Shown: positions 1,191 to 62,080 of the stretch, in pieces
How the letters are laid out: the number at the start of each line of letters is the position of its first letter
Numbering within the stretch: the stretch's first letter is position 1
Source: Amphiura filiformis
Taxonomy: Eukaryota > Echinodermata > Ophiuroidea > Amphilepidida > Amphiuridae
Reading direction: 5' to 3'
Assembly (NCBI RefSeq): GCF_039555335.1
Contig: NC_092642.1
Span: 57,825,776 to 57,889,775, forward strand
Length of the DNA stretch: 64,000 nucleotides
Notes under the pieces: model-generated
The model's input: the letters and a program-made list of their open reading frames with translations, nothing else
Told to the model about the DNA's origin: nothing
Database searches by the model: none
Position numbers and translations under genes: made by a program

Positions 1191-1196
1191 ATGTTC

Positions 1197-1480: not shown

Positions 1481-1490
1481 CACGATAACT

Positions 1491-4577: not shown

Positions 4578-4585
4578 GAGAGTAC

Positions 4586-11725: not shown

Positions 11726-11729
11726 GTAC
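11726..11729. repeat. Left TSD of LTR retrotransposon (GTAC)
   Basis: GTAC immediately precedes the TGTAACG start of the first LTR and is repeated right after the CGTTACA end of the second LTR at 34859-34862. This is the 4-bp duplication expected for LTR retrotransposon integration. Confidence 0.8.
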
Positions 11730-13610
11730 TGTAACGCGGCTGGGCCGCGGTGGTGAATACTGAGAATCCGGAACCTGGAACGACTGGACAAAAAGACAAA
11801 CTGTACGAAATGCCATCTAAAATGGTGAACTATTCTTATTGAGCGAATTTCACTGGTTCTTAAAAATACTACTCATGGCGGGAGCTTTCGACTGATGCCA
11901 GCTTGTCTATCAGTTTGGCAATTGAGCAATTTAGGCCAATCAGAAGTCAAATTTCTTTGCGATATAAAAATCAATAAATAAAACAAGAAAATAATAGGCT
12001 TCAGCCCATTTAATTAATTTTGAAGTCACTGGCAGATTTTCCACGTACTTTCCTTGATTCTGAAGTATAGAACTGCACGATTGAAAGAATAAACAGGAAG
12101 TTCCTTTTTTAATTCATAAAACGACGAGTGCGCCTTTAATCCATAACACCTAAATTCAGAGCCACCATCTGCATGGCATGCAATACATGCATGCACATCA
12201 TAATGCAAGGCTAAGCTTAGCCTTTCTTGAAGACTAGGAACTTCCCCTTTTATATTCTATCGTAATTAAATTAAGATGATTAAGCCATTGTTTAACAGTC
12301 ACGATGAACCAAGATGTCCAAGAGAAGCAGAAGGCCCAAGAGCCTAAGTAAGCTTAAACTTTCCAGGCCACCTACAGGCGCTAAAAGTTGCAAGGCAGCA
12401 GCCTAGGCCACCTAAGTTTACCGATTTATGACGATTTGTGACTGTAAAGATGCTGAAAATGGTGCAGTTCTATAGGCCTATCTTCGAGGGAGACAATCAA
12501 GCATTCATGGGAACCAAAAATTATTAAACTACGCAGTGGAGAAAGCTAGGCTAGCCTTGAAAAAGGCTCGAAGATGACAACCCACTTTACACTGCTGACA
12601 TGGCTGCATGTCGTCTGCTACATTTTGACCACCATTTTTGGCTGAAAGTTCCCATAAATTGCATTAAATGTCTTCCACATCGAAGCTGAAATTTAGTGAA
12701 CCAATGTCAAGGAAAGCGAGGCTACGGCAGTGAGTGGCAATCACTTCCAATGCCCGATGAGTCTCATTTCAAATCTGCTGTGATAGAGCTGACCAGGGCG
12801 TGACTGCCCCTGGCAGCGTCAAACCAAAAAGTGAGCAATTTTGGCGAGCAGCCGCTTTTATAGTGAGCAATTTATCGCGAAAACACGCACAAAACGAGAG
12901 TTGAGTGAGCAGAAAAATCACTTTCCTTGCTCACGAGCAATTTATCGTCTTTTCTCGTGAGCAAGAAACAGCACATTCTGCTCACGAGAACTCGCTCACC
13001 GAAAAGGTTTCTGATTGACTGAAAAACATGAAAAACGAACGCGGCTCAAACCCAGACAAGCGAGAATCCGACCATAGACATCCCCAGACGGGGTCGATCT
13101 CCAGAATGAAAAGCGAGTTGCCAGGGCTGCAAATTTGACAGAATCTTTACTAGATTCAGAGAATTAAGCCCAAATCAACAAAGAACTGGCAACATGTAAA
13201 CAAATCAAAACTTTCCCAGATCGAAAATATGCACGAAACACATCATTTTAAACCAATTAATTTACGCCTAAATTCAATTCAGATTTCAATAAAAGTAATT
13301 TTGATAGTATTTCCACCTGTGCTTTACTGTAAACTTTTATTAATTTGCACAATAAAAGAATTTGGGTCATGAAAATCTGGCGACCAAATCAGTAACTGGT
13401 GAGTAATACAATACTCTTCATTCAGTAAGCTTATAAAAATGCATGACCAGAACATCGAAATCGAGGACGAATCGAAATTTGGTTATAAAAATCATGATAA
13501 CTAGTCCAAGAGATATAGGTACGTGTAACAATACAAAAATAAGACCATAAGCCTCACACGAGCTCAAATAACCAATTTTAGAGAATGAGCGAAAATCCAT
13601 TTTCGTTACA
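11730..13610 (-). repeat. LTR 1 (3' LTR in element orientation), intact
   Basis: 1881 bp, TGTAACG...CGTTACA. By eye it differs from the second LTR by about five substitutions and four short indels, mostly near 12790-13120 (for example GCTGACC versus GCTAACC). Such low divergence implies a young insertion, because the two LTRs are identical when made. Inner features of the LTR (promoter, polyadenylation site) were not identified. Confidence 0.85.
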
Positions 13611-13645
13611 CTACCCCCACCTCTGAAAAGAATTTCGTCCTCGAA
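13606..13645 (-). pseudogene. Possible remnant of pol C-terminus with PPT
   Basis: Read on the minus strand this gives F-E-D-E-I-L-F-R-G-G-G-S-V-T running into the LTR. The Gly-rich stretch is the polypurine tract. An acidic FEDE followed by a Gly-rich tail just before the 3' LTR is common in Ty3-type elements. A TAA lies two codons upstream in the same frame, so no protein is encoded. The family call is an inference from a very short match. Confidence 0.35.
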
Positions 13646-15959
13646 ATTTTATTTAATTTCTGAATTAAGTGAACAATCTAAATTGTGAACTATTATTAAA
13701 ATTCAAAACATTCAAAAGAGAATTGAATTTACCAAAATTTGAATAAAAGCCAAAATTTCATTAAAAAAATGCACAGGATTTAAACTGGTTAGATCGACCA
13801 ATTCCATACCTAAGTCATTTTAGTGCACTCATCATTGCCAAAAATTACTCGTCTTGTGACACGTGAACATTTCCACCACTGAGGTCTCCAGCGCTTGCTT
13901 TATGAAACATTTTAAAGAAGACATAACACCGTACTAGGAAGACCTTTGCAAGACAATCCCTGTCAACATTGAGCACACAATACATAGTATAAAATCTTAC
14001 TCTACAATTTGGTTTAATTTTGTTTTGATTTTCAAGAATTTTTTTTTAATTATTATTATTTTTATCATTTAAATTTTGCAAATCTATTTCAAATTTAACT
14101 GAAGTTAAGTATAAAGTTATTCCAGAAATATAATCAAAAGTTTTCAAAACATCTCAAATATTAATTCAAAACGATATTCTGAAATCTGTTTCAAAATCAT
14201 CACAATGTAAACAAAGGTTATTTTTATCTTCCAAAATTTCAAGTTTTAAAATTTCAATCAATTTTCAAATTTCCAATTATCCAAAACTCCAAATTTTTAA
14301 ATGTTTCCAATCATCACAAAACTTTAATATCAGAAATAATAGTATTTCACTTTCTGAGCTTTTCAAAATAACCAAAATTCATTTAAATTTTATTTTCCAA
14401 AAATCCAATTTTCAAAATTCAAAGATAAATTATTTATCAATTAAAATTTTGTGCTCCAAATTATTTGCTAGATTTTTGATGTGTGAATTTACAAATTTTA
14501 CATGCTGAATTAACTGAATCTTCGTATAGTCTTCTTCTGCAGGTTATCAGTCTCTCAGATGATCATCAGCTTGTACACCATCACACAGGTAGCCTGTCAT
14601 CTGACATCATGCTGAACCAGGTTCCAGATGGCAGTGAGAGTCACCTTGTCAAGACTCAAGTTGGGAAATGTTGCTTTGAAAAGATTTAACACTGGTATTG
14701 TTGGAAGAACCATCAAAGTTTCACCATACACACTCGGTAGCGCAGTCATCCCATCACACCATGTAGCTAGCACAGGGCTCTCATCAGAACAGGTTCAGAC
14801 CATCGCTCACATGACATCCCACATAGAGCCCAAGGTAGAGAATAAATAATACCAGTGTCAAACTTCTCATTGCAACATGTCCCAGGTGCGTGCCATCTCC
14901 AGGTTGAATACCATCGAAGACTGAAGAACCACCGTCACCACATGCTGACTGATGAACCATTGCTGAAAAGATACAACTAGTAAAGATGGTTGTTTACACA
15001 AGCAAAGCAATGGTACCATTCTTTAATTCACATCAACACAGTCAAGTTGATAGCATATGTACAATGTGTAGTACCAAATCATCAGAATTAATAAAGTTGG
15101 TTGAACAATAAAATATCATAAAACATGACATTTTGCAGTTATTTTGTTAAAGTTGAAGGTACATGTTAGACTTTTTTTTTTTTTCTCCATCAAATAAAGT
15201 TAATCTTCAAGGTTGGCAAGGTAGAGTGTAGCCAAACCATCTCTCCCTGAAAGGTAGGTAGGAAATATTGGTAATGAATTTTACAGTGTGATCAGTACTG
15301 CAAGCATCAATGTCAACATTCCAGAACACAATGTAGGACCCCTGATACTGTGGTGCACCAGCAACACCAGTACGTCATACATGTGAAAGGTAGGTATGTT
15401 TCATCACCCCAGGTGAGATCTATAATTTGAAGAAATTAATAAAGATTGCTAACTATCAAGATTGGTGTAAACAGTTGTTGGTTGGTAGCCACTCACTTTT
15501 AAAATTTCCATTCAGCAGCACTGTACAATTAGTACAGCACAGCTGATACAGCCACATCTTACCTCTCTCAGTTTATGTAAATTAAGTAGAATGATAAGAG
15601 TCTCACACACTCTCAGTCTCCCTGCAATCATCCTAAGGTTCCACCCATTTTGTAGTAGTCGTCTCAAGGCGTAGTACCAGATCAAAACAATGGCGCTTAC
15701 TCAACCATTGCGATCAAAAAACACATCTCCGTTAGCTGCTGAGCTTACCCTGCTCGTCCTGGCTACAACGGAGGTATCAACAAAAGCGGACCGGTCCTTT
15801 CCAATTCCAACAAATTCACATGTAAAAATACATCTTCCAGGCATGGCGCTATATCTCCCTCTTCCTCACTCCTTTATCGAGCACCTTCTCTGGGAACGGC
15901 GGGTGGTTACTACGTGGCCTTGCGACTACTTCCAGTTCAATGGGCAGTGGCGTCTACTA

Positions 15960-16092
15960 CTGTATGTATCCATTGCTGCAACCCCTGCTACAGCGTCTGC
16001 AGCCCCTGCTACTGCGCCTGCACTCTGCAGCCCCTGCTACAGCGCCTTGAGCCCCTGCTGCTGTGCCTGTAGTCCCTGTTACAGCGCCTGGA
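15960..16092. repeat. CCCCTGCTACAGCGCCTG minisatellite
   Basis: Five or six degenerate units of about 18-24 bp around CCCCTGCTACAGCGCCTG. It lies in the retrotransposon interior. On the minus strand it would encode Gly/Ala-rich peptide, but no longer frame contains it. Confidence 0.65.
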
Positions 16093-16667
16093 TCACCATC
16101 CACATTATTTTCTATCTAATTTCGGAGTTGGGTTGTCTACCAACCTTAGGATTGCTATACCACCAGATAATGTAAGATGAGGCTGTGACTGTAGGCCATC
16201 TGGCAACACTAAAAGTATAAAAACTTTGATAAAAGTTAACATGAAGGACATTTATGCAGTTGTAAATACTTGCAATTACATTGCATATTAAAGATGATAG
16301 ACTGGTCATTTGGTACTACTCAATTCTGAAGCTGCATTTGTAGGCCATAATTACATCAAGGAATACCGGCACTCACATGCTCAACAGGCTTTGAAGCATT
16401 TTAGACTCAATTCTGACATCACAAACACACAAACATCACCATCGCATTGGTAGCGTAGACATGGCATATGTGTAGCGTAGAACCGTAGCGGCGCAGAAAC
16501 AGTATACATTTTGAACACCATAGAATAGGCTAAATAGAGCTGCGAAGCCACAGGTAAGCTTACCATGGAATGTCGAAATTCATGTCCAGGCTGTTCCGGA
16601 CGATCTCAGTACTCAGTAGGTCTGTCATCTATGAAGAAGGTCAACTCTCCTAAGAAGCAAAGTTCAT

Positions 16668-16685
16668 CCACACAAGCTGCCACCA
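16668..16685 (-). promoter_or_regulatory. Possible tRNA primer-binding site
   Basis: On the minus strand TGGTGGCAGCTTGTGTGG begins six bases inside the 5' LTR. A TGG start pairs with the CCA end of a tRNA, and this is the expected place for a primer site. I cannot name the tRNA. Confidence 0.45.
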
Positions 16686-16691
16686 AAAATT

Positions 16692-16864
16692 TGTAACGCG
16701 GCTGGGCCGCGGTGGTGAATACTGAGAATCCGGAACCTGGAACGACTGGACAAAAAGACAAACTGTACGAAATGCCATCTAAAATGGTGAACTATTCTTA
16801 TTGAGCGAATTTCACTGGTTCTTAAAAATACTACTCATGGCGGGAGCTTTCGACTGATGCCAGC
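16692..16864 (-). repeat. LTR 2, first fragment
   Basis: It is identical by eye to 11730-11902 of LTR 1, starts TGTAACG, and stops abruptly after GATGCCAGC, where CATTACAAGG begins. The LTR resumes at 33149 with TTGTCTATCAG, exactly the next base of LTR 1 after the shared AGC. Confidence 0.9.
16862..16864. repeat. Left TSD (AGC) of 16.3-kb element
   Basis: AGC occurs once in the intact LTR (11900-11902) and twice here, at 16862-16864 and 33146-33148. That makes it a 3-bp target-site duplication. Confidence 0.8.
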
Positions 16865-17389
16865 CATTACAAGGTGTTGTCTAAGCTTTTTGGAGCGTCG
16901 AATACCGAGCTACCTCGGTATACCATTAAGTACATCTGTCAGCAGCAGGATTAGTGCCCCTGTTAAATCAATAACATTCAGCAGAAACCATATGCTACCA
17001 AGAGGCCGCGGGGCATATAGCGGGGTATCCAATTTCGTTTGCATCACAAGTCCTGACTGCTTTGCTTACTGTAATATCACCGACCTTGTTGCAAGGGCCA
17101 ATCAGAGCCAATATACTGCGCATGCTGAAATCCTCCGGTAATTAAAAATTCCTTTAAAAAGGAAAAGGGCAAACAAAGGATTGGGTGTAACTTTATGGGT
17201 GTACGCTAGTAATTAGTGTGAATGTGAATCAATGTGAAATGTGTTTCTTTATTATACGATATTCTCTGTAGATATAATGTGTCTATTTGTATGTGACTGC
17301 TAATGTCAATATGAGGCCGTCGTAGTTCGTACGGGGCTCAAACTCGGTGGGTGGATGTAGTTTTCTTTTGTTATTCTTATTATTATTTA
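16865..17389. other. Unique left arm of the 16.3-kb element
   Basis: It contains the TIR and the short palindrome near 16903-16918. A 94-codon frame (16857-17141) crosses the TIR boundary and so is fortuitous. No transposase motif was seen. Confidence 0.5.
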
Positions 17390-18415
17390 CTGAGTAGTCC
17401 TACGTGCATGGGGTGGGTGTTAGATGAAAGTAGTCCTACGGAGGACCTTTTTTTATACTTTGGTGTATGTAACCCTACAGGGGGCCCATTTTCCTTATTA
17501 ACTGAAGTCCTGCGTGTGTGGGGTGGTTGGGTGTTAGATGAAAGTAGTCCTACGGGGGGACCTTTTTATACTTTGTTGCATGTAGTCCTACAGGGGCCAG
17601 TTTTCCTTATTATTATTTATTAAGTAGTCCTACGTGTATGGGGTAGGTGGGTGGGTTTAAGATGAAAGTAGTCCTACGGAGGACCTTTTTTTTATACTTT
17701 GTTGCATGAAATCATACGGGGCCAATTTCCTTATTTACTGTAGTCCTACGTGTATAGGGTGGGGTGGGTGGGTGTTAGATGAAAGTAGTCCTACAGGGAC
17801 CTTTTTACACTTTGTTGCATGAAGTCCTACAGTACAGTAGCCCATTTTCCTTATTATTATTTACTGAGTAGTCCTACGTGTATGGGGTGGGTAGGTGGGT
17901 GTTACATGAAAGTAGTTCTACGGAGGACCTTTTTTATATTTTGTTGCATGTAATCCTACAGGGGCCCATATCCTTATTACTGTAGTCCTACGTGTATGGG
18001 GTGGGGTGGGTGTTTGGGTGTTAGATGAAAGTAGTCCTCTGGGGACCTTTTTATACTTTGTTGCATGTAGTCCTACAGGGCCAATTTTCCTTATTATTTA
18101 CTAAGTAGTCCTACGTGTATGGGGTGGGGTGGCTGGGTGTTAGATGAAAGTAGTCCTAGGGGGGACCTTTTTATACTTTGTTGCATGTAGTCCTACAGGG
18201 GCCATTTTCTTTATTATTTAATGAGTAGTCCTACGTGTTTGGGGTGGAGGGTGGTTGTTAGATGAAAGTAGTCCTATGGAGGACCTTCTTTTATACATTG
18301 TTGTATGTACTCCTACATGGGGCCATTTTCCTTATTTACTGTATTACTACGTGTATGGGGTGGGGGGGCGGGGTGGGTGGGTTTTAGATGAAAGTAGTCC
18401 TACGGTCCTACGTTA
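17390..18415. repeat. ~118-bp tandem array with G-runs
   Basis: About nine units starting near 17391, 17503, 17622, 17740, 17867, 17983, 18106, 18225 and 18340, with spacing of 110-127 bp. Each has GTCCTACGTGTATGGGG, a GGGTGGGTGGG-type run, GTTAGATGAAAGTAGTCCTA, GGACCTTTTT and GCATGTAGTCCTACAGG. Several runs fit the four-tract G-quadruplex pattern (17757-17773 and 17998-18019, for example). TTATTATT microsatellite lies between units and continues at 18415-18452. Confidence 0.85.
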
Positions 18416-18452
18416 ATTATTATTATTATTATTAGTGTTATTATTATTATTA

Positions 18453-18948
18453 ATATAGGTTTTCCCGTCCAATTTCGAACTTTGGTCGTTCAGTTTAGTA
18501 TAAGTGACATTCCTTTTCGCGCGAAATTTAATGAACGCTTACATTCTCGATTTCAATTAAGCGAATGTTCAATCTATTTCATTTAATACGCATTCAAAAT
18601 TCTAAAAAGTGCACCCAATTTCGCACATTGTGCAGCAAATTTTGCAAATTGTGCAGCCAACTTCACGTAGGCTTTAATTCAGAGCCTATTTGGAAATACA
18701 AATTAATATTATGCGAAAACAAAATGGAAAAATGTTCAATCGAATTCGCAAAGTGCAGAATCAAATCCTGAAGTTCTTAAATAGTTTACAATGGTTCAAA
18801 TATGAAAATGCTATTTATCGTGTTTACCCAGTGGGCACAGGTTAGGATTTCGCCGTTGAATCAACGTTGACACAACGTCGAAGTTTCAATCTAACCTGAT
18901 TTCAACCCGATTTCAACCTAAAAGTTAGTTGAAATCAGGTTGAAATAT
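18453..18948. other. Spacer between two tandem arrays
   Basis: Non-coding. 18835-18948 has an inverted pair, AACCTGATTTCAAC and GTTGAAATCAGGTT, forming a possible hairpin. It runs directly into the first 54-bp unit, so it may be the junction of an older short element. Confidence 0.5.
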
Positions 18949-21900
18949 GGGCACATGTATTTGGTGGTATATAGGAAAAGGGTAGCACAATTTTTGAAAG
19001 GGCAGCACATGTATTGTGTGCTATATAGGAAAAGGGTAGCACAATTTTTGAAAGGGCAGCTCATGTATTGTGTGGTATATTGAAAAAGGGTAGCACAATT
19101 TTTAAAGGGCAGCACATGAATTGTGTGGTATATTGGAAAAGGTAGCACAATTTTTTGAAAGGGCAGCACATGTATTGTGTGGTATATTGGAAAAGGGTAG
19201 CACAAGTTTTGAAAGGGCAGCACATGTATTGTGTGGTATATTGGAAAGGGTAGCACAATTGTTGAAAGGGCAGCACATGTATTGTGTGCTATATAGGAAA
19301 AAGGCTAGCACAATTTTGAAAAGGCAGCACATGAATTGTGTGGTATATTGGAAAAGGGTAGCACAATTTTTAAAAGGGCAGCACATGTATTGTGTGGTAT
19401 ATTGGAAAAAGGTAGCACAATTTTGATAGGGCAGCACATGTATTGTGTGGCATATTGGAAAAGGGTAGCACAATTTTTGAAAGGGCAGCACATGTATTGT
19501 GTGGCATATAGGAAAAGGGTAGCACAATTTTTGAAAGGGCAGCACATGTATTGTGTGGTATATTGGAAATGGGTAGCACAATTTTTGATAGGGCAGCACA
19601 TGTATTGTGTGATATATTGGAAAAGGGTAGCACAGTTTTTGAAAGGGCAGCACATGTATTGTGTGGTATATAGGAAAAGGGTAGCACAAATTTTGAAAGG
19701 GCAGCACATGTATTGTGTGGCATATAGGAAAAGGGTAGCACAAATTTTGAAAGGGCAGCACATGTATTGTGTGGCATGTAGGAAAAGGGTAGCAAAATTT
19801 TGAAAGGACAGCACATGTATTGTGTGGTATATTGGAAAAGGGTAGCACAATTTTGAAAGGGCAGCACATGTATTGTGTGGTATATTGGAAAAGGGTAGCA
19901 CAATTTTGATAGGGCAGCACATGTATTGTGTGATATATTGGAAAAGGGTAGCATAGTTTTTGAAAGGGCAGCACATGTTTTGTGTGGTATATTGGAAAAG
20001 GGTAGCACAATTTTGAAAGGGCAGCACATGTATTGTGTGGTATATTGGAAAAGGGTAGCACAATTTTGAAAGGGAAGCACATGTATTGTGTGGTATATAG
20101 GAAAAAGGTAGCACAAATTTTGAAAGGGCAGCACATGTATTGTGTGGCATATAGGAAAAGGGTAGCACAAATTTTGAAAGGGCAGCACATGTATTGTGTG
20201 GCATATAGGAAAAGGGTAGCACAAATTTTGAAAGGGCAGCACATATATTGTGTGGCATATAGGAAAAGGTAGCACAAATTTTGAAAGGGCAGCACATGTA
20301 TTGTGTGGCATATAGGAAAAGGTAGCACACATTTTGAAAGGGCAGCACATGTATTGTGTGGTATATTGGAAAAGGGTAGCACAATTTTTAAAAGGGCAGC
20401 ACATGTATTGTGTGGTATATTGGAAAAGGGTAGCACAATTTTTGATAGGGCAGCACATGTATTGTGTGATATATTGAAAAAGGGTAGCACAGTTTTTGAA
20501 AGGGCAGCACATGTATTGTGTGGTATATTGGAAAAGGGTAGCACAATTTTTGAAAGGGCAGCACAATTTTTGAAAGGGCAGCACATGTATTGTGTGGTAT
20601 ATAGGAAAAGGCTAGCACAATTTTTGAAAGGGCAGCACATGAATTGTGTGGTATATTGGAAAAGGGTAGCACAATTTTTGAAAGGGCAGCACATGAATTG
20701 TGTGCTATATAGGAAAAGGCTAGCACAATTTTTGAAAGGGCAGCACATGAATTATGTGGTATATTGGAAAAGGGTAGCACAATTTTTGAAAGGGCAGCAC
20801 ATGTATTGTGTGGTATATTGGAAAAGGGTAGCACAATTTTTGAAAGGGCAGCACATGAATTGTGTGGTATATTGGAAAAGGGTAGCACAATTTTTGAAAG
20901 GGCAGCTCATGTATTGTGTGGTATATTGGAAAAGGGTAGCACAATTTTTGATAGGGCAGCACATGTATTGTGTGATATATTGGAAAAGGGTAACACAGTT
21001 TTGAAAGGGCAGCACATGTATTGTGTGGTATATTGGAAAAGGGTAGCACAATTTTTGAAAGGGCAGCACATGTATTGTGTGGTATATTGGAAAAGGGTAG
21101 CACATTTTTTGATAGGGCAGCACATGTATTGTGTGATATATTGGAAAAGGGTAGCACAGTTTTTGAAAGGGCAGCACATGTATTGTGTGGTATATTGGAA
21201 AAGGGTAGCACAATTTTTGAAAGGGCAGCACGTGTATTGTGTGGTATATTGGAAAAGGGTAGCACAATTTTTGATAGGGCAGCACATGTATTGTGTGATA
21301 TATTGGAAAAGGGTAGCACAATTTTTGAAAGGACAGCACATGTATTGTGTGGTATATTGGAAAAGGGTAGAACATTTTTTGAAAGGGCAGCACATGTATT
21401 GTGTGGTATATTGGAAAAGGGTAGCACAATTTTGATAGGGCAGCACATGTATTGTGTGATATATTGGAAAAGGGTAGCATAGTTTTTGAAAGGGCAGCAC
21501 ATGTATTGTGTGGTATATTGGAAAAGGGTAGCACAATTTTTGAAAGGGCAGCACATGTATTGTGTGGTATATTGGAAAAGGGTAGCACAATTTTTGAAAG
21601 GGAAGCACATGTATTGTGTGGCATATAGGAAAAGGGTAGCACAAATTTTGAAAGGGCAGCACATGTATTGTGTGGCATGTAGGAAAAGTGTAGCACAAAT
21701 TTTGAAAGGGCACAAATTTTGGGATATAGAAAAAGTGTAGCAAAATTTTGAAAGGACAGCACATGTATTGTGTGGTATATTGGAAAAGGGTAGCACAATT
21801 TTTGAAAGGACAGCACATGTATTGTGTGGTATATTGGAAAAGGGTAGCACAATTTTTGAAAGGGCAGCACATGTATTGTGTGGTATATTGGAAAAGGGTA

Positions 21901-24900
21901 GCACAATTTTTGATAGGGCAGCACATGTATTGTGTGATATATTGGAAAAGGGTAGCATAGTTTTTGAAAGGGCAGCACATGTATTGTGTGGTATATTGGA
22001 AAAGGGTAGCACAATTATTGAAAGGGCAGCACATGTATTGTGTGGTATATTGGAAAAGGGTAGCACAATTTTTGAAAGGGAAGCACATGTATTGTGTGGT
22101 ATATAGGAAAAGGGTAGCACAAATTTTGAAAGGGCAGCACATGTATTGTGTGGCATATAGGAAAAGGGTAGCACAAATTTTGAAAGGGCAGCACATGTAT
22201 TGTGTGGCATATAGGAAAAGGTAGCACAAATTTTGAAAGGGCAGCACATATATTGTGTGGCATATAGGATAAGGGGAGCACAAATTTCGAAAGGGCAGCA
22301 CATGTATTGTGTGGCATATAGGAAAAGGGTAGCACACATTTTGAAAGGGCAGCACATGTATTGTGTGGTATATTGGAAAAGGGTAGCACAATTTTTAAAA
22401 GGGCGGCACATGTATTGTGTGGTATATTGGAAAAGGGTAGCACAATTTTTGATAGGGCAGCACATGTATTGTGTGATATATTGAAAAAGGGTAGCACAGT
22501 TTTTGAAAGGGCAGCACATGTATTGTGTGGTATATTGGAAAAGGGTAGCACAATTTTTGAAAGGGCAGCACATGTATTGTGTGGTATATTGGAAAAGGGT
22601 AGCACAATTTTTGAAAGGGCAGCACATGTATTGTGTGGTATATAGGAAAAGGGTAGCACAAATTTTGAAAGGGCAGCACATGTATTGTGTGGCATATAGG
22701 AAAAGGGTAGCACAAATTTTGAAAGGGCAGCACATGTATTGTGTGGCATATAGGAAAAGGGTAGCACAAATTTTGGAAGGGCAGCACATGTATTGTGTGG
22801 CATATAGGAAAAGGGTAGCACAAATTTTGAAAGGGCAGCACATGTATTGTGTGGCATATAGGAAAAGGGTAGCACAAATTTTGAAAGGGCAGCACATGTA
22901 TTGTGTGGTATATTGGAAAAGGGTAGCACAATTTTTGAAAGGGCAGCACATGTATTGTGTGGTATATTGGAAAAAGGGTAGCACAATTTTGAAAGGGCAG
23001 CACATGTATTGTGTGGTATATAGGAAAAGGCTAGCACATTTTTTGAAAGGGCAGCACATGAATTGTGTGGTATATTGGAAAAGGGTAGGACAATTTTTGA
23101 AAGGGCAGCACATGAATTGTGTGCTATATAGGAAAAGGCTAGCACAATTTTTGAAAGGGCAGCACATGAATTATGTGGTATATTGGAAAAGGGTAGCACA
23201 ATTTTTGAAAGGGCAGCACATGAATTGTTTGCTATATAGGAAAAGGGTAGCACAATTGTTGAAAGGGCAGCACATGTATTGTGTGCTATATAGGAAAAGG
23301 CTAGCACAATTTTTGAAAGGGCAGCTCATGTATTGTGTGGTATATAGGAAAAGGGTAGCACAATTTTTGATAGGGCAGCACATGTATTGTGTGATATATT
23401 GGAAAAAAGGTAGCACAGTTTTGAAAGGGCAGCACATGTATTGTGTGGTATATTGGAAAAGGTAGCACAATTTTGAAAGGGCAGCACATGTATTGTGTGG
23501 TATATTGGAAAAGGGTAGCACATTTTTTGATAGGGCAGCACATGTATTGTGTGATATATTGGAAAAGGGTAGCACAGTTTTTGAAAGGGCAGCACATGTA
23601 TTGTGTGGTAGGGTAGCACAAATTTTGAAAGGGCAGCACATGTATTGTGTGGCATATAGGAAAAAGGTAGCACAAATTTTGAAAGGGCAGCACATGTATT
23701 GTGTGGCATATAGGAAAAGGGTAGCACAAATTTTGAAAGGGCAGCACAATTTTGAAAGGGACAGCACATGTATTGTGTGGTATATTGGAAAAGGGTAGCA
23801 CAATTTTTGAAAGGGCAGCACATGTATTGTGTGGTATATTGGAAAAGGGTAGCACAGTTTTTGAAAGGGCAGCACATGTATTGTGTGGTATATTGGAAAA
23901 GGGTAGCACAATTTTTGAAAGGGCAGCACATGTATTGTGTGGTATATTGGAAAAGGGTAGCACAATTTTGATAGGGCAGCACATGTATTGTGTGATATAT
24001 TGGAAAAGGGTAGCACAGTTTTTGAAAGGGCAGCACATGTATTGTGTGGTATATAGGAAAAGGGTAGCACAAATTTTGAAAGGGCAGCACATGTATTGTG
24101 TGGCATGTAGGAAAAGGGTAGCACAAATTTTGAAAGGGCAGCACATGTATTGTGTGGCATATAGGAAAAGGGTAGCACAAATTTTGAAAGGGCAGCACAT
24201 GTATTGTGTGGTATGTAGGAAAAGGTAGCACAATTTTTGAAAGGACAGCACATGTATTGTGTGGTATATTGGAAAAGGGTAGCACAATTTTTGAAAGGGC
24301 AGTACATGTATTGTGTGGTATATTGGAAAGGGTAGCACAATTGTTGAAAGGGCAGCACATGTATTGTGTGCTATATAGGAAAAGGCTAGCACAATTTTTG
24401 AAAAGGCAGCACATGAATTGTGTGGTATATTGGAAAAGGGCAGCACATGTATTGTGTGGTATATTGGAAAAGGTAGCACAATTTTGATAGGGCAGCACAT
24501 GTATTGTGTGGTATATTGGAAAAGGGTAGCACAATTTTGAAAGGGCAGCACATGTATTGTGTGGTATATAGGAAAAGGGTAGCACAAATTTTGAAAGGGC
24601 AGCACATGTATTGTGTGGCATATAGGAAAAGGGTAGCACAAATTTGGAAAGGGCAGCACATGTATTGTGTGGCATATAGGAAAAGGGTAGCACAATTTTT
24701 GAAAGGGCAGCACATGTATTGTGTGGTATATTGGAAAAGGGTAGCACAATGTTTGATAGGGCACCACATGTATTGTGTGGTCTTTCGGACATAGGTTAGC
24801 ACAGTTTTTGAAAGGGCAGCACATGTATTGTGTGGTATATAGGAAAAGGGTAGCACAAATTTTGAAAGGGCAGCACATGTATTGTGTGGCATATAGGAAA

Positions 24901-27345
24901 AGGGTAGCACAAATTTTGAAAGGGCAGCACATGTATTGTGTGGCATGTAGGAAAAGGGTAGCACAAATTTTGAAAGGGCAGCACATGTATTGTGTGGTAT
25001 ATAGGAAAAGGTAGCACAATTTTGAAAGGACAGCACATGTATTGTGTGGTATATTGGAAAAGGGTAGCACAATTTTTGAAAGGACAGCACATGTATTGTG
25101 TGGTATATTGGAAAAGGGTAGCACAATTTTTGAAAGGGCAGCACATGTATTGTGTGGTATATTGGAAAAGGGTAGCACAATTTTGATAGGGCAGCACATG
25201 TATTGTGTGATATATTGGAAAAGGTAGCATAGTTTTTGAAAGGGCAGCACATGTATTGTGTGGTATATTGGAAAAAGGTAGCACAATTTTGAAAGGGCAG
25301 CACATGTATTGTGTGGTATATTGGAAAAAGGTAGCACAATTTTTGAAAGGGAAGCACATGTATTGTGTGGTATATAGGAAAAGGTAGCACAAATTTTGAA
25401 AGGGCAGCACATGTATTGTGTGGCATATAGGAAAAGGGTAGCACAAATTTTGAAAGGGCAGCACATGTATTGTGTGGCATATAGGAAAAGGGTAGCACAA
25501 ATTTTGAAAGGGCAGCACATATATTGTGTGGCATATAGGAAAAGGGTAGCACAAATTTTGAAAGGGCAGCACATGTATTGTGTGGCATATAGGAAAAGGG
25601 TAGCACACATTTTGAAAGGGCAGCACATGTATTGTGTGGTATATTGGAAAAGGGTAGCACAATTTTTAAAAGGGCAGCACATGTATTGTGTGGTATATTG
25701 GAAAAGGGTAGCACAATTTTTGATAGGGCAGCACATGTATTGTGTGATATATTGAAAAAGGGTAGCACAGTTTTGAAAGGGCAGCACATGTATTGTGTGG
25801 TATATTGGAAAAGGTAGCACAATTTTGAAAGGGCAGCACATGTATTGTGTGGTATATTGGAAAAGGGTAGCACAATTTTGAAAGGGCAGCACATGTATTG
25901 TGTGGTATATAGGAAAAGGGTAGCACAAATTTTGAAAGGGCAGCACATGTATTGTGTGGCATATAGGAAAAGGGTAGCACAAATTTTGAAAGGGCAGCAC
26001 ATGTATTGTGTGGCATATAGGAAAAGGGTAGCACAAATTTTGGAAGGGCAGCACATGTATTGTGTGGCATATAGGAAAAGGGTAGCACAAATTTTGAAAG
26101 GGCAGCACATGTATTGTGTGGCATATAGGAAAAGGGTAGCACAAATTTTGAAAGGGCAGCACATGTATTGTGTGGTATATTGGAAAAGGGTAGCACAATT
26201 TTTGAAAGGGCAGCACATGTATTGTGTGGTATATTGGAAAAGGGTAGCACAATTTTTGAAAGGGCAGCACATGTATTGTGTGGTATATTGGAAAAGGGTA
26301 GCACAATTTTTGAAAGGGCAGCACATGTATTGTGTGGTATATAGGAAAAGGGTAGCACAAATTTTGGAAGGGCAGCACATGTATTGTGTGGCATATAGGA
26401 AAAGGGTAGAACAAATTTTGAAAGGGTAGCACATGTATTGTGTGGCATATAGGAAAAGGGTAGCACAAATTTTGAAAGGGCAGCACATGTATTGTGTGGT
26501 ATATTGGAAAAGGGTAGCACAATTTTTGAAAGGGCAGCACATGTATTGTGTGGTATATTGGAAAAGGGTAGCACAATTTTTGAAAGGGCAGCACATGTAT
26601 TGTGTGGTATATAGGAAAGGATAGAACAAATTTTGAAAGGGCAGCACATGTATTGTGTGGTATATAGGAAAAGGGTAGCACAAATTTTGAAAGGGCAGCA
26701 CATGTATTGTGTGGCATATAGGAAAAGGGTAGCACAAATTTTGAAAGGGCAGCACATGTATTGTGTGGCATATAGGAAAAGGGTAGCACAAATTTTGAAA
26801 GGGCAGCACATGTATTGTGTGGTATATTGGAAAAGGGTAGCACAAATTTTGATAGGGCAGCACATGTATTGTGTGGTATATAGGAAAAGGTTAGCACAAT
26901 TTTGAAAGGGCAGCACATGTATTGTGTGGTATATTGGAAAAGGGTAGCACAATTTTTGAAAGGGCAGCCCAATTTTGTATGGTAGCAAATGTATAGCATG
27001 TGACAAGGGTAGCACAAATTGTTTAAGGGCAGCACATGTAAAGCATGGTATATACGGACAAGGGTAGCACACGTACATGTAGCGTGCTATATTGGAAAAG
27101 GTTACCACAAAAATTTCAAGGGTAGCACAGATTTGTTTAAGGGTAGCACACGTATAGTGTGCTATAATATTGGTAATTGTAGCAAAAATGGTTGATGGGC
27201 AGCACATATACATAATGGTATATAGGTCAAGTGTGTAAAAAAGATTATTAATGGGCAGCACATGCATAGCTTGGTATATTGGGCAAGGGTAGCATATTTT
27301 TTGATAGGGCAGCGCATGTGTTGCGTGGTATACTTGAAAATGTTA
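18949..27345. repeat. 54-bp satellite array (~150 units)
   Basis: The unit reads roughly GGTATATTGGAAAAGGGTAG, then CACAATTTTTGAAAGGGCAG, then CACATGTATTGTGT. Variants form classes: GGCATATAGG with CAAATTTTG; a linked pair GATAGGGCAGCAC...GATATATTGG with CAGTTTTTG; and GAATTGTGTG(G/C)TATAT. The classes recur in the same order in blocks, so higher-order duplications exist (for example, near-identical stretches at about 20240-20500, 22246-22500 and 25520-25770). The left edge is sharp. Units after 26960 decay progressively to 27345, the usual sign of an array edge no longer homogenised. Because 54 is divisible by 3, very long stop-free frames arise; they are not genes. Confidence 0.95.
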
Positions 27346-28145
27346 GCACATAAGGTACCCTTTTTGGACTCGTAATTTACTAAAATGTGAAACGGTACCC
27401 TAAACAAGTTGATCAGTTTCAGAAAACTACCCTTTTCTTGATAATCAGTGTTTTTAGACCCTAAATGCGTCACTCGCGTAACTTGCCTTGCCTAAAAAAA
27501 AACCACCCCATATTCCTTGTTTTTTGTTCACGCATGCGTACAGTTTATGTGAGTGGCTCCCGGTCAAATTTGATCAAATCCTCCTGAAAACCATACCAAT
27601 GTATTGCTCTCGTCAAATGGATTCAGAAAAACTATAGTTCGACATATCTCCGACGTACATTTTTTTGAGTTATAGGGAAAAGGTCAAATGTCAAAATTTC
27701 AACTCCATGGGGGGCAAATTTCTATGATAAAAATTGTCTCATATTGATCTGCTTGCAAAAGTATTAAATAAAAAGGAATATCTATCTGTTTCCACCTGTT
27801 TTTGAATGGTCTTTTATAAAGACCAAGAAATTCAATGTGTCGATGACGGGGCAATAAAATTGGTTATTCTGATATAATAATTCTATATGGAAATGAGGCC
27901 ATCCTAATGCCGCTGCGCTGTGTTGAAATTCTGCATACTTTTTAATAGAATATTATATTATTAATTTCTTTCATACAGGTTCCTTGCTTCGTCGAAAAAA
28001 AAAAAAATTGTTTGACTGGCGTAACCCCGTCCTACCTTAAAATTAGGCCCGACCTACCTATTTTTTTTTTATGTTCCGCCAATCAAACATTTTTTTAGGC
28101 CTAAGATATTGAGATATTATCTCAGTTTTATCTTTTATTTGGAAT
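27346..28145. other. Spacer within the 16.3-kb element
   Basis: Non-coding sequence between the 54-bp array and the 1.5-kb repeats. It has short homopolymer tracts at about 27995 and 28060. Nothing is recognised. Confidence 0.4.
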
Positions 28146-31100
28146 CCAGATATTCTTTATTTAAACACCAGTTAAGAAATTAAATGAAACTTCGACGTAC
28201 GACAGAGAGTATATTTAGCTGACCATGTAGGCCTACCAATATTACCCATAGGGAGATTAAATACTGAAAAAACACACTCTTGGAAACCCGTAGGCTCCAT
28301 TTGCTATTCGCGGTGGCATCGTATTTGTAACAGTCGAAGACCTTAGTGGATAAAGTAGTTAAGTGCCAAAATAACAGTTTCGAGAAAAGTGGGTTTAAAG
28401 TTATGAATTGTTTCTATTGACCTCAAACTGAGATATTTTTGTATAAAACTTGCTGTAATGAATTGTACTTAATGTAGCTATCAATCAACGATTTGTCATT
28501 TATTGATTTTTTATAATCAATAATCAGTATTTTGTACTTGACTATTTTTTCCACTAAAACCATGGTTCAGATTTAAACAATTGCATTTTTCACAAAATTG
28601 AAAGTTAATAATAGTTAAAAGTATACATTTTCAAAATGCCCATATCGGGAAGAACAATTTTGTGTATCATTTATGCAAATCGGATGTTGTTGAAAATTTG
28701 ACCTCGTTTGACCTTTGATTGACCTCGACCCTATAACTGCTAAACAAATCGGACCATTTTTAAGTTTTGACCCAATTTGACCCCTCAAGTGACCCCTACT
28801 TGTAGGGGGTCAAATCGACCCAAATTTTCAAAAAAAAAAGTTTGACCCTAGTGACTTATAATCTGCCAATAACATAATTTCGTCAAAATGGCACTTGACT
28901 ACTTTATCTACTGGGGTCTCGCAGGTGACGCTATGATGAAGAATTGCCACACATTGCGCAAGTAGGCCTATAATAGGCCTAGTAGGCCTACCCATATCAC
29001 TGATTAAAATTTTGGGTATTCGACATACAGATTGATATCTGAGTAAAAGGAGGAGGCCATTTTTATTTTATTGTTTTGAGAGGTAGGCCCCACAGTGTCA
29101 TCGCCCCGATATCTTCATGGCAGAAATCGCCATGGTAGATTGAATCCACCGCCACGCATGGTCATTATACATATCGACTATCACATCTGTTCAAAATATA
29201 TATTCATGTGCAAGGAACCACATCTGGCTTCTTTATACGAAATCATTTACGGGAGATATTCATAATTTTCTACACCGGTATCCAAAGATTTTCTTCTCAT
29301 ATCAAACTCGTGCATAGCAAATTCACGTGTATCGATCCTGGGTATCTATTTTAGTATCCCTGCTGTACCAGGTAATTATTAGCCAGACGATGTCGTTGTG
29401 GGGCCCTCTAGTGACCCCAATGATGTATTTTGCATTTACAAAGCTGTAAAATAAGTTTCAACTTATGAAACATCTTTTTCAACAAGTTATAATTGAAAGT
29501 TTACAAAATAAAAAAATTGAAAAATCTTCAAAAAGGAGGAGGAGCGGACGAGAAACATGTATTTTTTTACTCGGCCTTATTATTTCTTAAAATAAAATTG
29601 CCTAGTAGGCCTAAATGCCAATCTTTCTGTGAAAAATATTCACACTTTGCTTTGCCAGATATTCTTTATTTAAACACCAGTTAAGAAATTAAATGAAACT
29701 TCGACGTACGACAGAGAGTATATTTAGCTGACCATGTAGGCCTACCAATATTACCAATAGGGAGATTAAATACTGGAAAAAAACACACTCTTGAAACCCG
29801 TAGGCTCCATTTGCTATTCGCGGTGGCATCGTATTTGTAACAGACCTTAGTGGATAAAGTAGTTAAGTGCCAAAATAACAGTTTCGAGAAAAGTGGGTTT
29901 AAAGTTATGAATTGTTTCTATTGACCTCAAACTGAGATATTTTTGTATAAAACTTGCTGTAATGAATTGTACTTAATGTAGCTATCAATCAACGATTTGT
30001 CATTTATTGATTTTTTATAATCAATAATCAGTATTTTGTACTTGACTACTTTTTCCACTAAAACCATGGTTCAGATTTAAACAATTGCATTTTTCACAAA
30101 ATTGAAAGTTAATAATAGTTAAAAGTATACATTTTAAAATGCCCATATCGAGAAGAACAATTTTGTGTATCATTTATGCAAATCGGATGTTGTTGAAAAT
30201 TTGACCTCGTTTGACCTTTGATTGACCTCGACCCTATAACTGCTAAACAAATCGGACCATTTTTAAATTTTGACCCAATTTGACCCCTCAAGTGACCCCT
30301 ACTTGTAGGGGGTCAAATCGACCCAAATTTTCAACAAAAAAATGTTTGACCCTAGTGACTTATAATCTGCCAATAACATAATTTCGTCAAAATGGCACTT
30401 GACTACTTTATCTACTGGGGTCTTGCAGGTGACGTTATGATGAAGAATCGCCACACATTGCGCAAGTAGGCCTATAATAGGCCTAGTAGGCCTACCCATA
30501 TCACTGATTAACATTTTGGGTATTCGACATACAGATTGATATCTGAGTAAAAGGAGGAGGCCATTTTTATTTTATTGTTTTGAGAGGTAGGCCCCACAGT
30601 GTCAGCGCCCCGATATCTTCATGGCAGAAATCGCCATGGTAGATTGAATCCACCGCCACGCATGGTCATTATACATATCGACTATCACATCTGTTCAAAA
30701 TATATATTCATGTGCAAGGAACCACATCTGGCTTCTTTATACGAAATCATTTACGGGAGATATTCATAATTTTCTACACCGGTATCCAAAGATTTTCTTC
30801 TCATATCAAACTCGTGCATAGCAAATTCACGTGTATCGATCCTGGGTATCTATTTTAGTATCCCTGCTGTACCAGGTAATTATTAGCCAGACGATGTCGT
30901 TGTGGGCCCCTCTAGTGACCCCAATGATGTATTTTGCATTTACAAAGCTGTAAAATAAGTTTCAACTTATGAAACATCTTTTTCAACAAGTTATAATTGA
31001 AAGTTTACAAAATAAAAAAAATTGAAAAATCTTCAAAAAAGGAGGAGGGAGCGGACGAGAAACATGTATTTTTTTTACTCGGCCTTATTATTTCTTAAAA

Positions 31101-32668
31101 TAAAATTGCCTAGTAGGCCTAAATGCCAATCTTTCTGTGAAAAAATATTCACACTTTGCTTTGCCAGATATTCTTTATTTAAACACCAGTTAAGAAATTA
31201 AATGAAACTTCGACGTACGACAGAGAGTATATTTAGCTGACCATGTAGGCCTACCAATATTACCAATAGGGAGATTAAATACTGGAAAAAACACACTCTT
31301 GGAAACCCGTAGGCTCCATTTGCTATTCGCGGTGGCATCGTATTTGTAACAGACCTTAGTGGATAAAGTAGTTAAGTGCCAAAATAACAGTTTCGAGAAA
31401 AGTGGGTTTAAAGTTATGAATTGTTTCTATTGACCTCAAACTGAGATATTTTTGTATAAAACTTGCTGTAATGAATTGTACTTAATGTAGCTATCAATCA
31501 ACGATTTGTCATTTATTGATTTTTTATAATCAATAATCAGTATTTTTACTTGACTACTTTTTCCACTAAAAACCATGGTTCAGATTTAAACAATTGCATT
31601 TTTCACAAAATTGAAAGTTAATAATAGTTAAAAGTATACATTTTAAAATGCCCATATCGAGAAGAACAATTTTGTGTATCATTTATGCAAATCGGATGTT
31701 GTTGAAAATTTGACCTCGTTTGACCTTTGATTGACCTCGACCCTATAACTGCTAAACAAATCGGACCATTTTTAAATTTTGACCCAATTTGACCCCTCAA
31801 GTGACCCCTACTTGTAGGGGGTCAAATCGACCCAAATTTTCAACAAAAAAATGTTTGACCCTAGTGACTTATAATCTGCCAATAACATAATTTCGTCAAA
31901 ATGGCACTTGACTACTTTATCTACTGGGGTCTCGCAGGTGACGTTATGATGAAGAATCGCCACACATTGCGCAAGTAGGCCTATAATAGGCCTAGTAGGC
32001 CTACCCATATCACTGATTAACATTTTGGGTATTCGACATACAGATTGATATCTGAGTAAAAGGAGGAGGCCATTTTTATTTTATTGTTTTGAGAGGTAGG
32101 CCCCACAGTGTCATCGCCCCGATATCTTCATGGCAGAAATCGCCATGGTAGATTGAATCCACCGCCACGCATGGTCATTATACATATCGACTATCACATC
32201 TGTTCAAAATATATATTCATGTGCAAGGAACCACATCTGGCTTCTTTATACGAAATCATTTACGGGAGATATTCATCATTTTGTACACCGGTATCCAAAG
32301 ATTTTCTTCTCATATCAAACTCGTGCATAGCAAATTCACGTGTATCGATCCTGGGTATTTATTTTAGTATCCCTGCTGTACCAGGTAATTATTAGCCAGG
32401 CGATGTCGTTGTGGCCCCTCTAGTGACCCCAATGATGTATTTTGCATTTACAAAGCTGTAAAATAAGTTTCAACTTATGAAACATCTTTTTCAACAAGTT
32501 ATAATTGAAAGTTTACAAAATAAAAAACATTTAAAATCTTCAATAAAGGAGGAGGGAGCGGACGAGAAACATGTATTTTTTTACTCGGCCTTATTATTTC
32601 TTAAAATAAAATTGCCTAGTAGGCCTAAATGCCAATCTTTCTGTGAAAAAATATTCACACTTTGCTTT
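28146..32668. repeat. Three tandem units of ~1509 bp
   Basis: Units start with CCAGATATTCTTTATTTAAA at 28146, 29655 and 31164. The last ends near 32668 (CACACTTTGCTTT). By eye units 2 and 3 are almost identical and unit 1 slightly more diverged. Each includes a block of GACCTCG/TTGACC words, a self-complementary CCTACTTGTAGGGGGTCAAA region, several TAGGCCTA words, and pieces also found inverted outside the element at 4620-4703 and 467-610. Minus-strand frames of 60-71 codons recur only because the unit recurs. Confidence 0.95.
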
Positions 32669-33145
32669 AAAAAAATTAAAACATGCTTTAATCTGAATAA
32701 TTTTTTCTGTTCATTGCAATAATATACATAAAATATTACTGTCTTCACATTATAAAATGTAAGGAATATGGTGTAATTAAAATCAGTTAAAAATGTGAAA
32801 ATATAAAACAACGAAATGCAAGGAACTGAGCTGTGTGAGACAGCAAATACGAAAGGGTGTGTGTGTGTGGACAAGTGCTGAACATGTACAGTACAGCCCT
32901 ATGCTACAGTACACAGTGTAAACTGAATGGAGGAGACGGCCACAAGGCCGCAGAGCTAACGGTCGGCTAAAAATAAATCTGACCTCGAGGTGTTTTGGAG
33001 TCGAATTTCTTGACTTAAATTCGACTCCAAAATTCTTGTGTGGTAAAGTAATTATCCCGTCGGGTGTCGCGTGCCAGCTATTATCAGGGATTATGAACAT
33101 TTTATGGGGTCATCGTACAAAAAGCATACAGGCCACCTTGTAATG
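32669..33145. other. Unique right arm of the 16.3-kb element
   Basis: It has a (GT)n tract near 32858, an inverted pair GAGTCGAATTT / AAATTCGACTC at about 32999-33028, and the right TIR. No coding frame is recognised. Confidence 0.55.
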
Positions 33146-33148
33146 AGC
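33146..33148. repeat. Right TSD (AGC) of 16.3-kb element
   Basis: The second copy of AGC; the LTR resumes immediately afterwards. Confidence 0.8.
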
Positions 33149-34858
33149 TTGTCTATCAGTTTGGCAATTGAGCAATTTAGGCCAATCAGAAGTCAAATTT
33201 CTTTGCGATATAAAAATCAATAAATAAAACAAGAAAATAATAGGCTTCAGCCCATTTAATTAATTTTGAAGTCACTGGCAGATTTTCCACGTACTTTCCT
33301 TGATTCTGAAGTATAGAACTGCACGATTGAAAGAATAAACAGGAAGTTCCTTTTTTAATTCATAAAACGACGAGTGCGCCTTTAATCCATAACACCTAAA
33401 TTCAGAGCCACCATCTGCATGGCATGCAATACATGCATGCACATCATAATGCAAGGCTAAGCTTAGCCTTTCTTGAAGACTAGGAACTTCCCCTTTTATA
33501 TTCTATCGTAATTAAATTAAGATGATTAAGCCATTGTTTAACAGTCACGATGAACCAAGATGTCCAAGAGAAGCAGAAGGCCCAAGAGCCTAAGTAAGCT
33601 TAAACTTTCCAGGCCACCTACAGGCGCTAAAAGTTGCAAGGCAGCAGCCTAGGCCACCTAAGTTTACCGATTTATGACGATTTGTGACTGTAAAGATGCT
33701 GAAAATGGTGCAGTTCTATAGGCCTATCTTCGAGGGAGACAATCAAGCATTCATGGGAACCAAAAATTATTAAACTACGCAGTGGAGAAAGCTAGGCTAG
33801 CCTTGAAAAAGGCTCGAAGATGACAACCCACTTTACACTGCTGACATGGCTGCATGTCGTCTGCTACATTTTGACCACCATTTTTGGCTGAAAGTTCCCA
33901 TAAATTGCATTAAATGTCTTCCACATCGAAGCTGAAATTTAGTGAACCAATGTCAAGGAAAGCGAGGCTACGGCAGTGAGTGGCAATCACTTCCAATGCC
34001 CGATGAGTCTCATTTCAAATCTGCTGTGATAGAGCTAACCAGGGGCGTGACTGCCCTGGCAGCGTCAAACCAAAAAGTGAGCAATTTTGGCGAGCAGCCG
34101 CTTTTATAGTGAGCAATTTATCGCGAAAACACGCACAAAACGAGAGTTGAGTGAGCAGAAAAAGGACTTTCCTAGCTCACGAGCAATTTATCGTCTTTTC
34201 TCGTGAGCAAGAAAACAGCACATTCTGCTCACGAGAACTCGCTCACCGAAAAGGTTTCTGATTGACTGAAAAACATGAAAAACGAACGCGGCTCAAACCC
34301 AGACAAGCGAGAATCCGACCATAGACATCCCCAGACGGGGTCGATCTCCAGAATGAAAAGCGAGTTGCCAGGGCCGCAAATTTGACAGAATCTTTACTAG
34401 ATTCAGAGAATTAAGCCCAAATCAACAAAGAACTGGCAACATGTAAACAAATCAAAACTTTCCCAGATCGAAAATATGCACGAAACACATCATTTTAAAC
34501 CAATTAATTTACGCCTAAATTCAATTCAGATTTCAATAAAAGTAATTTTGATAGTATTTCCACCTGTGCTTTACTGTAAACTTTTATTAATTTGCACAAT
34601 AAAAGAATTTGGGTCATGAAAATCTGGCGACCAAATCAGTAACTGGTGAGTAATACAATACTCTTCATTCAGTAAGCTTATAAAAATGCATGACCAGAAC
34701 ATCGAAATCGAGGACGAATCGAAATTTGGTTATAAAAATCATGATAACTAGTCCAAGAGATATAGGTACGTGTAACAATACAAAAATAAGACCATAAGCC
34801 TCACACGAGCTCAAATAACCAATTTTTAGAGAATGAGCGAAAATCCATTTTCGTTACA
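33149..34858 (-). repeat. LTR 2, second fragment
   Basis: It matches 11903-13610 of LTR 1 almost base for base and ends CGTTACA, followed by the GTAC TSD. Together with 16692-16864 it restores a 1883-bp LTR. Confidence 0.9.
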
Positions 34859-34862
34859 GTAC
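34859..34862. repeat. Right TSD of LTR retrotransposon (GTAC)
   Basis: Direct copy of 11726-11729. Confidence 0.8.
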
Positions 34863-35140
34863 CAGAGTATTTGGATACACAATCATAAAATGTGGCGTCA
34901 TTGATTTTATATCATCAGGCCAAAAAACGACGTAAATTTTTGGGCAATTTCACTCTTTTTGGCATTGATTTCCAAGAGTTTGATACACAGACTCCAAAAC
35001 TGCATTTCTAGAAGCACAATTGATGTCTCTAAACACTTGACAAATCAACTTAAAGTGTGTACCTTCTCTAAGCTACTTTTTGTTAAAATGAAAACAGGTG
35101 TCCGTGTCCCATATTACCTGCTGTCCCATATTACCTGCAG

Positions 35141-37882: not shown

Positions 37883-38244
37883 TTAAGGGGGTACTACACC
37901 CCTGTGGTAAATTTGTGACTATTTTTGCATTTTTCTCAAAAAACACACTGGTAACAAAAGTTATGCATATTATTGGGGCAAGGAATCCAATTACTACATT
38001 GAAATTTCAGTGACTCAAGACAAGCGGTTCAGTATATATGATTGGAAATGAGGTACATCTTAGCGGTACCTTATTTCTTATCATAAATAACGAACCGCTT
38101 GTCTTGGGTCACTGAAAATCCAATGTAGTAATTGAATTCCTTGCCCCTATAATATACATAAATTTTGTTACCAGTGTGTTATCAGTTTTTGAGAAAAATG
38201 CAGAAATAGACACAAATTTATCGAGGGGTGTAGTACCCCCTTAA
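37883..38244. mobile_element. TTAA-flanked TIR element, copy 1
   Basis: TTAAGGGGGTACTACACCCC at the left and GGGGTGTAGTACCCCCTTAA at the right. The whole element is close to a fold-back, with arms meeting near GGTACCTTATTTC. TTAA ends fit a piggyBac-type non-autonomous element. Relatives are at 52073 and 56596. Confidence 0.85.
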
Positions 38245-43214: not shown

Positions 43215-43689
43215 AATTGTTGTTTGAATTGTGCGTTGTTGTCATGTAAACAAAGAGTAAACAACTTAATTAGCATCTTACCTTAATTAGCATTTATTGG
43301 AACTGTTTATTTCTAAATGGATTGAAATTATGTTTTGTATGCAAAATAGAACCTCATTCGTGGTTTTGAATTTTTAACTCGTTGTATAACCCATTGAAAC
43401 ACAAAAGAAAACTATTTACAAGTAAACAAACTATGTAAACAAATTTAAACGGCTATTACATAATTAAATGTGAATCCAATTTATTTTTGCTGAACCATGA
43501 AATGGTCTCAGCCTAGCCCTATATTAGTGTAGGGCCTATGTTACTAGCTTACTTACTTACTAACTGACTAACCATTTGGTCTGAAATGGACATCTCTAAA
43601 TGCCACGAAGGTATGACCCCATGAGTGGTGTCATATGAAAGAGGAAAACATAAAGAATATAATAAAAATATTTCCAAACATCAGCGGTC
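43215..43689. other. Intron 1, no recognised element
   Basis: Only a small ACTTACTTACTAACTGACTA tract near 43552. Confidence 0.35.
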
Positions 43690-45715: not shown

Positions 45716-45977
45716 AGCTTTCCACGATCAAGGTATATATTAAAACGTCAATTAATGAAACAATCTTATTAAAATTAATACTATCCAGTATTGCTGCTTG
45801 ATCAGATCGTCACAGTCATCTGCCTAACTTACCTCGATCCCTTGCAAAGGGCACAGTTGCTCTAGTTTATTTTATATTCTTTACTTTTCCTCTTTCATTA
45901 ACACCACTCAGGCGGTCATACCTTCGTAGCATTTCGAGATTATGTCCATTACAGACTCCGGGTGACAGTGGTATAGG

Positions 45978-62050: not shown

Positions 62051-62080
62051 ATAATTCTGGTATACCCTGCACACAAATAT

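Follow-up and report, generated by a model that had tools for sequence, protein, structure and literature searches.

In Amphiura filiformis, a young LTR element has its second LTR interrupted by a large insert, which is very probably a non-autonomous cut-and-paste transposon, most similar to CACTA/EnSpm elements, that landed there together with its 54-bp and 118-bp satellites. This reading is based on the ends of the insert, on its target duplication and on the result that no transposase was found in it. The sequence-only reading of this DNA had likewise proposed a single non-autonomous transposon holding three arrays, and the empty site, the duplication, the flush ends and the transposase result all support this. 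Positions below refer to the window, that is, the whole stretch of 64,000 nucleotides that was analyzed.

Insertion site and ends of the insert

Two copies of a 1,881-bp LTR (TGTAACG...CGTTACA), one whole and the other split, are present in the window 3 kb apart. The features of the site and of the insert ends are listed here.

11730..13610, no strand: intact LTR used as empty-site control, 1,881 bp (self-comparison)
16692..16864, no strand: interrupted LTR, first 173 bp, 100% identical over 173 bp to 11730-11902
33146..34858, no strand: interrupted LTR, remainder, opening with the duplicated AGC (3 bases)
16862..16864, no strand: target duplication AGC, left copy (junction comparison)
33146..33148, no strand: target duplication AGC, right copy (junction comparison)
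16865..33145, no strand: the insert, a probable non-autonomous TIR transposon, 16,281 bp (empty-site comparison)
16865..16892, + strand: left inverted end, a 12-bp perfect TIR followed by 8 mostly unmatched and 8 matched bases
33118..33145, - strand: right inverted end, counterpart of the left one
16902..16921, no strand: left subterminal hairpin, ATACCGAG-CTAC-CTCGGTAT
32993..33032, no strand: right subterminal palindrome, 16/16 arms and an 8-bp loop

The LTR halves are separated by exactly 16,281 bp (16865-33145), and the break lies directly after AGC. In the self-comparison, 33146-34863 aligned with 11900-13615 at 99.4% identity over 1,719 columns; when the halves were rejoined by a script with one AGC removed, nine of 1,884 columns differed from the intact LTR. 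The junctions read GATGCCAGC followed by CATTACAAGGTG on the left and CACCTTGTAATG followed by AGCTTGTC on the right, while the intact LTR reads GATGCCAGCTTGTC. Hence AGC is single in the intact LTR and doubled around the insert in the one insertion event examined, and the earlier observation of a second LTR split by 16281 bp with a repeated AGC was confirmed by comparison with the intact copy. The LTR pair itself is flanked by a separate 4-bp duplication: GTAC stands at 11726-11729 and again at 34859-34862.

The 12-bp terminus CATTACAAGGTG opens the insert and its exact reverse complement closes it. Pairing of the two ends gives 12 matches in the first 12 positions, 3 in the next 8 and 8 in the last 8 (23/28 in total), and CATTACAAGGTG has one site per strand in the window, both at the insert ends. 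When 2,000,000 pairs of window positions were drawn at random, one showed a flush inverted match of at least 12 bases. Chance is no serious explanation for the inverted ends, because the LTR comparison sets the breakpoints independently of them. Thus the inverted ends described earlier were recovered as 12-bp perfect termini flush with the breakpoints.

These junctions also bear on the idea that the satellite block is unrelated to the ends around it, which would come from two different elements or from an assembly error, so that the whole never moved as one unit. Assembly is generally difficult for tandem arrays and near-identical LTRs, but a misjoin is unlikely to place a 3-bp duplication directly against perfect inverted ends where the LTR is exactly broken, and we consider this explanation very improbable.

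Within 200 bp of the ends and outside the TIR, we counted 11 repeated 8-mers against a shuffle mean of 1.9 (none of 500 shuffles reached 11); the corresponding numbers were 14 (shuffle mean 5.2, p = 0.004) for 300 bp and 29 (shuffle mean 17.3, p = 0.028) for 480 bp. This excess is mostly due to the two palindromes listed above and not to a many-times-repeated motif.

Searches of viral contigs gave no matches for the insert end pattern and none for a 22-base satellite pattern. Among bacterial and archaeal contigs, the end pattern had one match, in a Psychroflexus assembly, which was taken as chance; for 20 fixed bases, 257 billion bases and two strands, the estimated chance expectation is about 0.5 exact matches. 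Among the literature matches listed, those for CATTACAAGGTG were two papers on SARS-CoV-2 and one describing a Candida toolbox, with no title pointing to transposons, and the three satellite sequences did not occur in any listed match.

Coding content of the insert and its surroundings

Outside the 54-bp array, the insert contains 29 stop-to-stop frames above the length limits, spread over three stretches. In the left stretch, the longest frame (102 aa) is shorter than the 95% shuffle value of 134 (200 shuffles); the longest frame of the stretch 26969-29654 (124 aa, with a 95% shuffle value of 122) lies in a repetitive edge and, scanned one codon short, had no Pfam match; and the longest frame of the right stretch has 108 aa. 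Ten of these 29 frames were scanned against Pfam, yielding two weak matches, both below the cut-off.

Open frames in the 54-bp array reach 1,261 aa, because the period of 54 bp is a multiple of three. Three of the four long frames scanned inside this array remained below the Pfam cut-off, and frame 22485-23462 scored above the cut-offs of Surp (46.8 bits, cut-off 21.1) and TMEM125 (28.5 bits, cut-off 27). No single stretch of the latter frame passes for either family, and we read the scores as weak ones added up across tandem repeats. Transposase families, including Transposase_21 (tnp2), were absent from all 15 scanned insert frames (10 outside the 54-bp array and five inside it or at its edge). 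The absence of Transposase_21 is expected if the insert is a non-autonomous copy. The window yielded no RNA families and no tRNAs. AGGCCT-rich sequence in it is reminiscent of echinoderms or hemichordates.

Several other features of the window were recorded. The internal region of the LTR element (13611-16691) has a longest frame of 166 aa, above its 95% shuffle value of 125, and the three frames scanned from it had no Pfam match. A 176-aa frame at 58220-58747 has two homologues at 46-49% identity (best E-value 1.5e-38) and no Pfam match; judging by these homologues, it is likely an exon of a real gene. Three palindromic repeats (37883-38244, 52063-52422 and 56596-56921) carry TTAAGGGGGTACTACACCCC at both ends and resemble a family of TTAA-targeting miniature elements. 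At 43579-45956, inverted arms (93 columns, 85%) enclose a 127-bp tandem array (45114-45714), and this region may represent another element of the inverted-repeat type, with a satellite as its core. Finally, a TAACCC array of 14.5 copies at 62080-62166 represents a telomere-like motif inside the window.

Satellite arrays and the order of events

The insert contains the following arrays.

17411..18405, + strand: tandem array of about 118-120 bp, approximately 8 copies (8.3 by TRF)
18951..26968, + strand: 54-bp tandem array, 149 copies by TRF
26969..27350, + strand: degenerate copies at the edge of the 54-bp array, 71-75% identity to the array start
28146..32668, + strand: 1,509-bp unit in three tandem copies of 1509, 1509 and 1505 bp

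Together the three arrays occupy 13.5 kb, or 13.9 kb with the degenerate edge, which is 83-85% of the insert and bears out the earlier description of 118-, 54- and 1509-bp arrays totalling about 14 kb. A core similar to AGTCCTAC has 22 sites with at most one mismatch in 17381-18410, around the first array. The 54-bp monomer is a pair of 35 and 19 bp, both parts of which contain a motif similar to AAAGGGYAGCACA.

Positions 865-952 and 1274-1432 of the 1,509-bp unit match 4614-4702 (93%) and 466-637 (86%) of the window, respectively, on the other strand, and positions 1400-1435 match 4800-4837 at 87%. The matched region, 466-4837, may be an independent element about 4.4 kb long, whose short inverted ends read GGCCRAGTAA and stand beside TTA, a Harbinger-like look; an end and an inner piece of this region are present in each 1,509-bp unit.

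The two LTRs of one element are identical at the moment of its insertion, and the LTR pair can serve as a clock; the 16.3-kb insert entered after that moment. It differs by five substitutions in 1,880 positions (0.27%; 95% CI 0.09-0.62%) and four gaps. An alignment by MAFFT gave 14 substitutions (0.74%) and two gaps; the count of five was preferred, as MAFFT had put mismatches where two gaps are more economical. Mean divergence is 6.1% among the 54-bp monomers (144 of 154 intervals, the ten irregular or edge intervals being dropped) and 8.4% among the eight 118-bp monomers, which are of unequal length. Both values greatly exceed the divergence of the LTRs by either count, which dates the diversification of the two arrays to before the insertion. 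If all of these sequences changed at one rate, neither array can have grown from a single unit once the insert was in place.

The three 1,509-bp units are much more similar to each other, with 11/1,501, 14/1,498 and 9/1,503 pairwise differences (0.6-0.9%). Compared with the LTR divergence, these give p-values of 0.07, 0.011 and 0.18, which is significant for units 1 and 3 only; with MAFFT, the differences number 25, 19 and 18, and the p-values against the LTRs are 0.015, 0.16 and 0.21. The age of the units is thus close to that of the LTR pair or somewhat greater, and their order relative to the insertion is weakly resolved. A 1.27-kb block within the 54-bp array has been copied 3.27 kb away with six differences in 1,268 positions (0.47%), yielding p = 0.37 against the LTRs and p = 0.04 when pooled with units 1-3. 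The block was bounded at 21744-23020, as the alignment 21737-23610 (55/1,863) overruns it. The tripling of the 1,509-bp units and the copying of the block seem to fall near or before the arrival of the LTR element, and either step may have followed the transposition.

The near-LTR youth of these units and of the copied block is what speaks for a short transposon having entered the LTR, with the arrays built in place later by slippage and unequal exchange. Against such in-place growth stand the monomer divergences of 6.1% and 8.4%, compared with 0.27% (0.74% by MAFFT) for the LTRs, and the array edge at 71-75% identity: at one common rate, this divergence and the degenerate edge require far more time than the age of the insertion, and we regard in-place growth as improbable. 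Gene conversion does not threaten the main dating point, because converted copies look younger, while a locally higher mutation rate could weaken the dating of the arrays before the insertion.

We therefore favour the order in which the 54-bp and 118-bp satellites diversified and then arrived together. The sequence-only reading had left two possibilities, that a satellite block moved or that it was seeded and then expanded inside the mobile unit; the divergence data favour arrival in a diversified state for the 54-bp and 118-bp arrays, and they resolve the order weakly for the tripling of the 1,509-bp unit. Under the preferred reading, unequal exchange within previous copies of the element would have enlarged the arrays, the 1,509-bp units would already have been tripled on arrival, and the 16.3-kb insert would have landed as one unit in the second LTR, its ends being recognised by a transposase encoded elsewhere. 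At least the 54-bp and 118-bp arrays would thus travel inside the element.

Family assignment

The flush inverted ends and the target duplication demonstrated by the empty site place the insert among TIR transposons. Its 3-bp AGC duplication has the length found in CACTA/EnSpm elements, and its first bases, CATTA, are one base off the CACTA core. Because of these first bases we do not file the insert as a CACTA member, although it appears to resemble this group in its ends and duplication. The CACTA/EnSpm likeness proposed earlier thus stands for the duplication but not for the core, and the label denotes a resemblance. In the part of PMC8978399 that was available, CACTA elements are described as having 3-bp duplications, TIRs and subterminal repeats.

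Other identities were considered and rejected. A PIF/Harbinger identity does not agree with the duplication, which is AGC and not the 3-bp TWA of that superfamily. Helentrons move by a rolling circle, without TIRs of the kind found in the insert, and Helentrons and Helitrons produce no TIR-flush target duplication; the TIRs and the flush AGC duplication of the insert do not fit them. An animal TRC identity would imply CCC ends and a 2-bp duplication, where the insert has CATTA and 3 bp.

The insert could also lie outside CACTA/EnSpm, in Zator, in Academ or in a superfamily that has yet to be described, each with 3-bp duplications. This alternative concerns the family only, overlaps with the preferred explanation and seems to us possible, though unlikely. 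Academ target duplications are 3-4 bp long. The start CATTA instead of CACTA agrees with this alternative, as does the result that the scanned insert frames contain no transposase linking it to a family, but eight of the first nine bases of the insert match the plant CACTA end, CACTACAAG. In the available parts of the sources, 3-bp duplications are reported for Zator (PMC10045372), and the CCC/2-bp type, which departs from the insert, is reported for the animal CACTA-related TRC elements (PMC1636069) and for the Hydra element Spongebob (PMC4298943); against the alternative, 3-bp duplications are documented for CACTA itself (PMC8978399, in part). The available parts of PMC11071193 and PMC9659126 contained no usable end motifs for comparison, and the sources consulted gave no reference ends for Zator or Academ.

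Comparison with known satellite-bearing elements

How satellite arrays come to scattered sites is an old question, and the insert suggests that satellite blocks can move as cargo. Since the empty site, the duplication and the LTR-pair clock are present in one window, one can read off directly in which order the arrays grew and moved. Membership of the insert in a wider family and routine spread of satellites by that family we infer from one copy. It is a tentative idea that an undescribed animal family with CATTA ends and 3-bp duplications routinely gathers several unrelated satellites, allows them to expand within the element and disperses whole blocks of more than 10 kb per jump; if it is true, transposition would be a direct route for the spread of satellite "libraries".

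Satellites within mobile elements are already known. Among the matches listed in our literature search (titles and openings of abstracts, with few subscription journals covered), there was no animal CACTA-like element with several satellite arrays. A CACTA-like element of quinoa (Chenopodium quinoa) has 16,523 bp and carries a satellite array of 171 bp x 32.5, or 5,550 bp; like the insert, it is a TIR transposon of about 16 kb that encloses a tandem satellite and belongs to the 3-bp duplication class, but it contains a Transposase_21 coding sequence, has one array near its 3' end and comes from a plant (PMC8978399, in part). The insert differs from it in having three unrelated arrays, CATTA ends and no transposase found. 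In the same plant genus, the satellite with the highest abundance is built from monomers that come from the CACTA-like element Jozin, as deletion derivatives of its tnp2 domain (PMC7320549, in part).

Three animal systems share other features with the insert. The Cg_HINE Helentrons of the Pacific oyster are non-autonomous and spread satellite-like central repeats, which come from one or, exceptionally, two repeat clusters (PMC7492417, in part), whereas the insert has TIRs, a 3-bp duplication and three arrays. The foldback transposon Tetris of Drosophila virilis is apparently non-autonomous as well, and its repeats seeded longer satellite-like arrays, but these repeats of about 220 bp sit within the Tetris TIRs, while the arrays of the insert are internal and its TIRs are short (PMC4079207, in part). 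SmTRC1 and the animal TRC elements are animal relatives of CACTA, SmTRC1 with a tandem-repeat region, and differ from the insert by CCC ends, a 2-bp duplication and a Transposase_21 domain (PMC1636069, in part). Compared with these systems, as far as the available parts of the sources describe them, the insert stands apart as a single TIR element of such size that holds three unrelated arrays, has CATTA ends and no transposase found, and comes with both an empty site and a clock; in this combination it extends the precedents.
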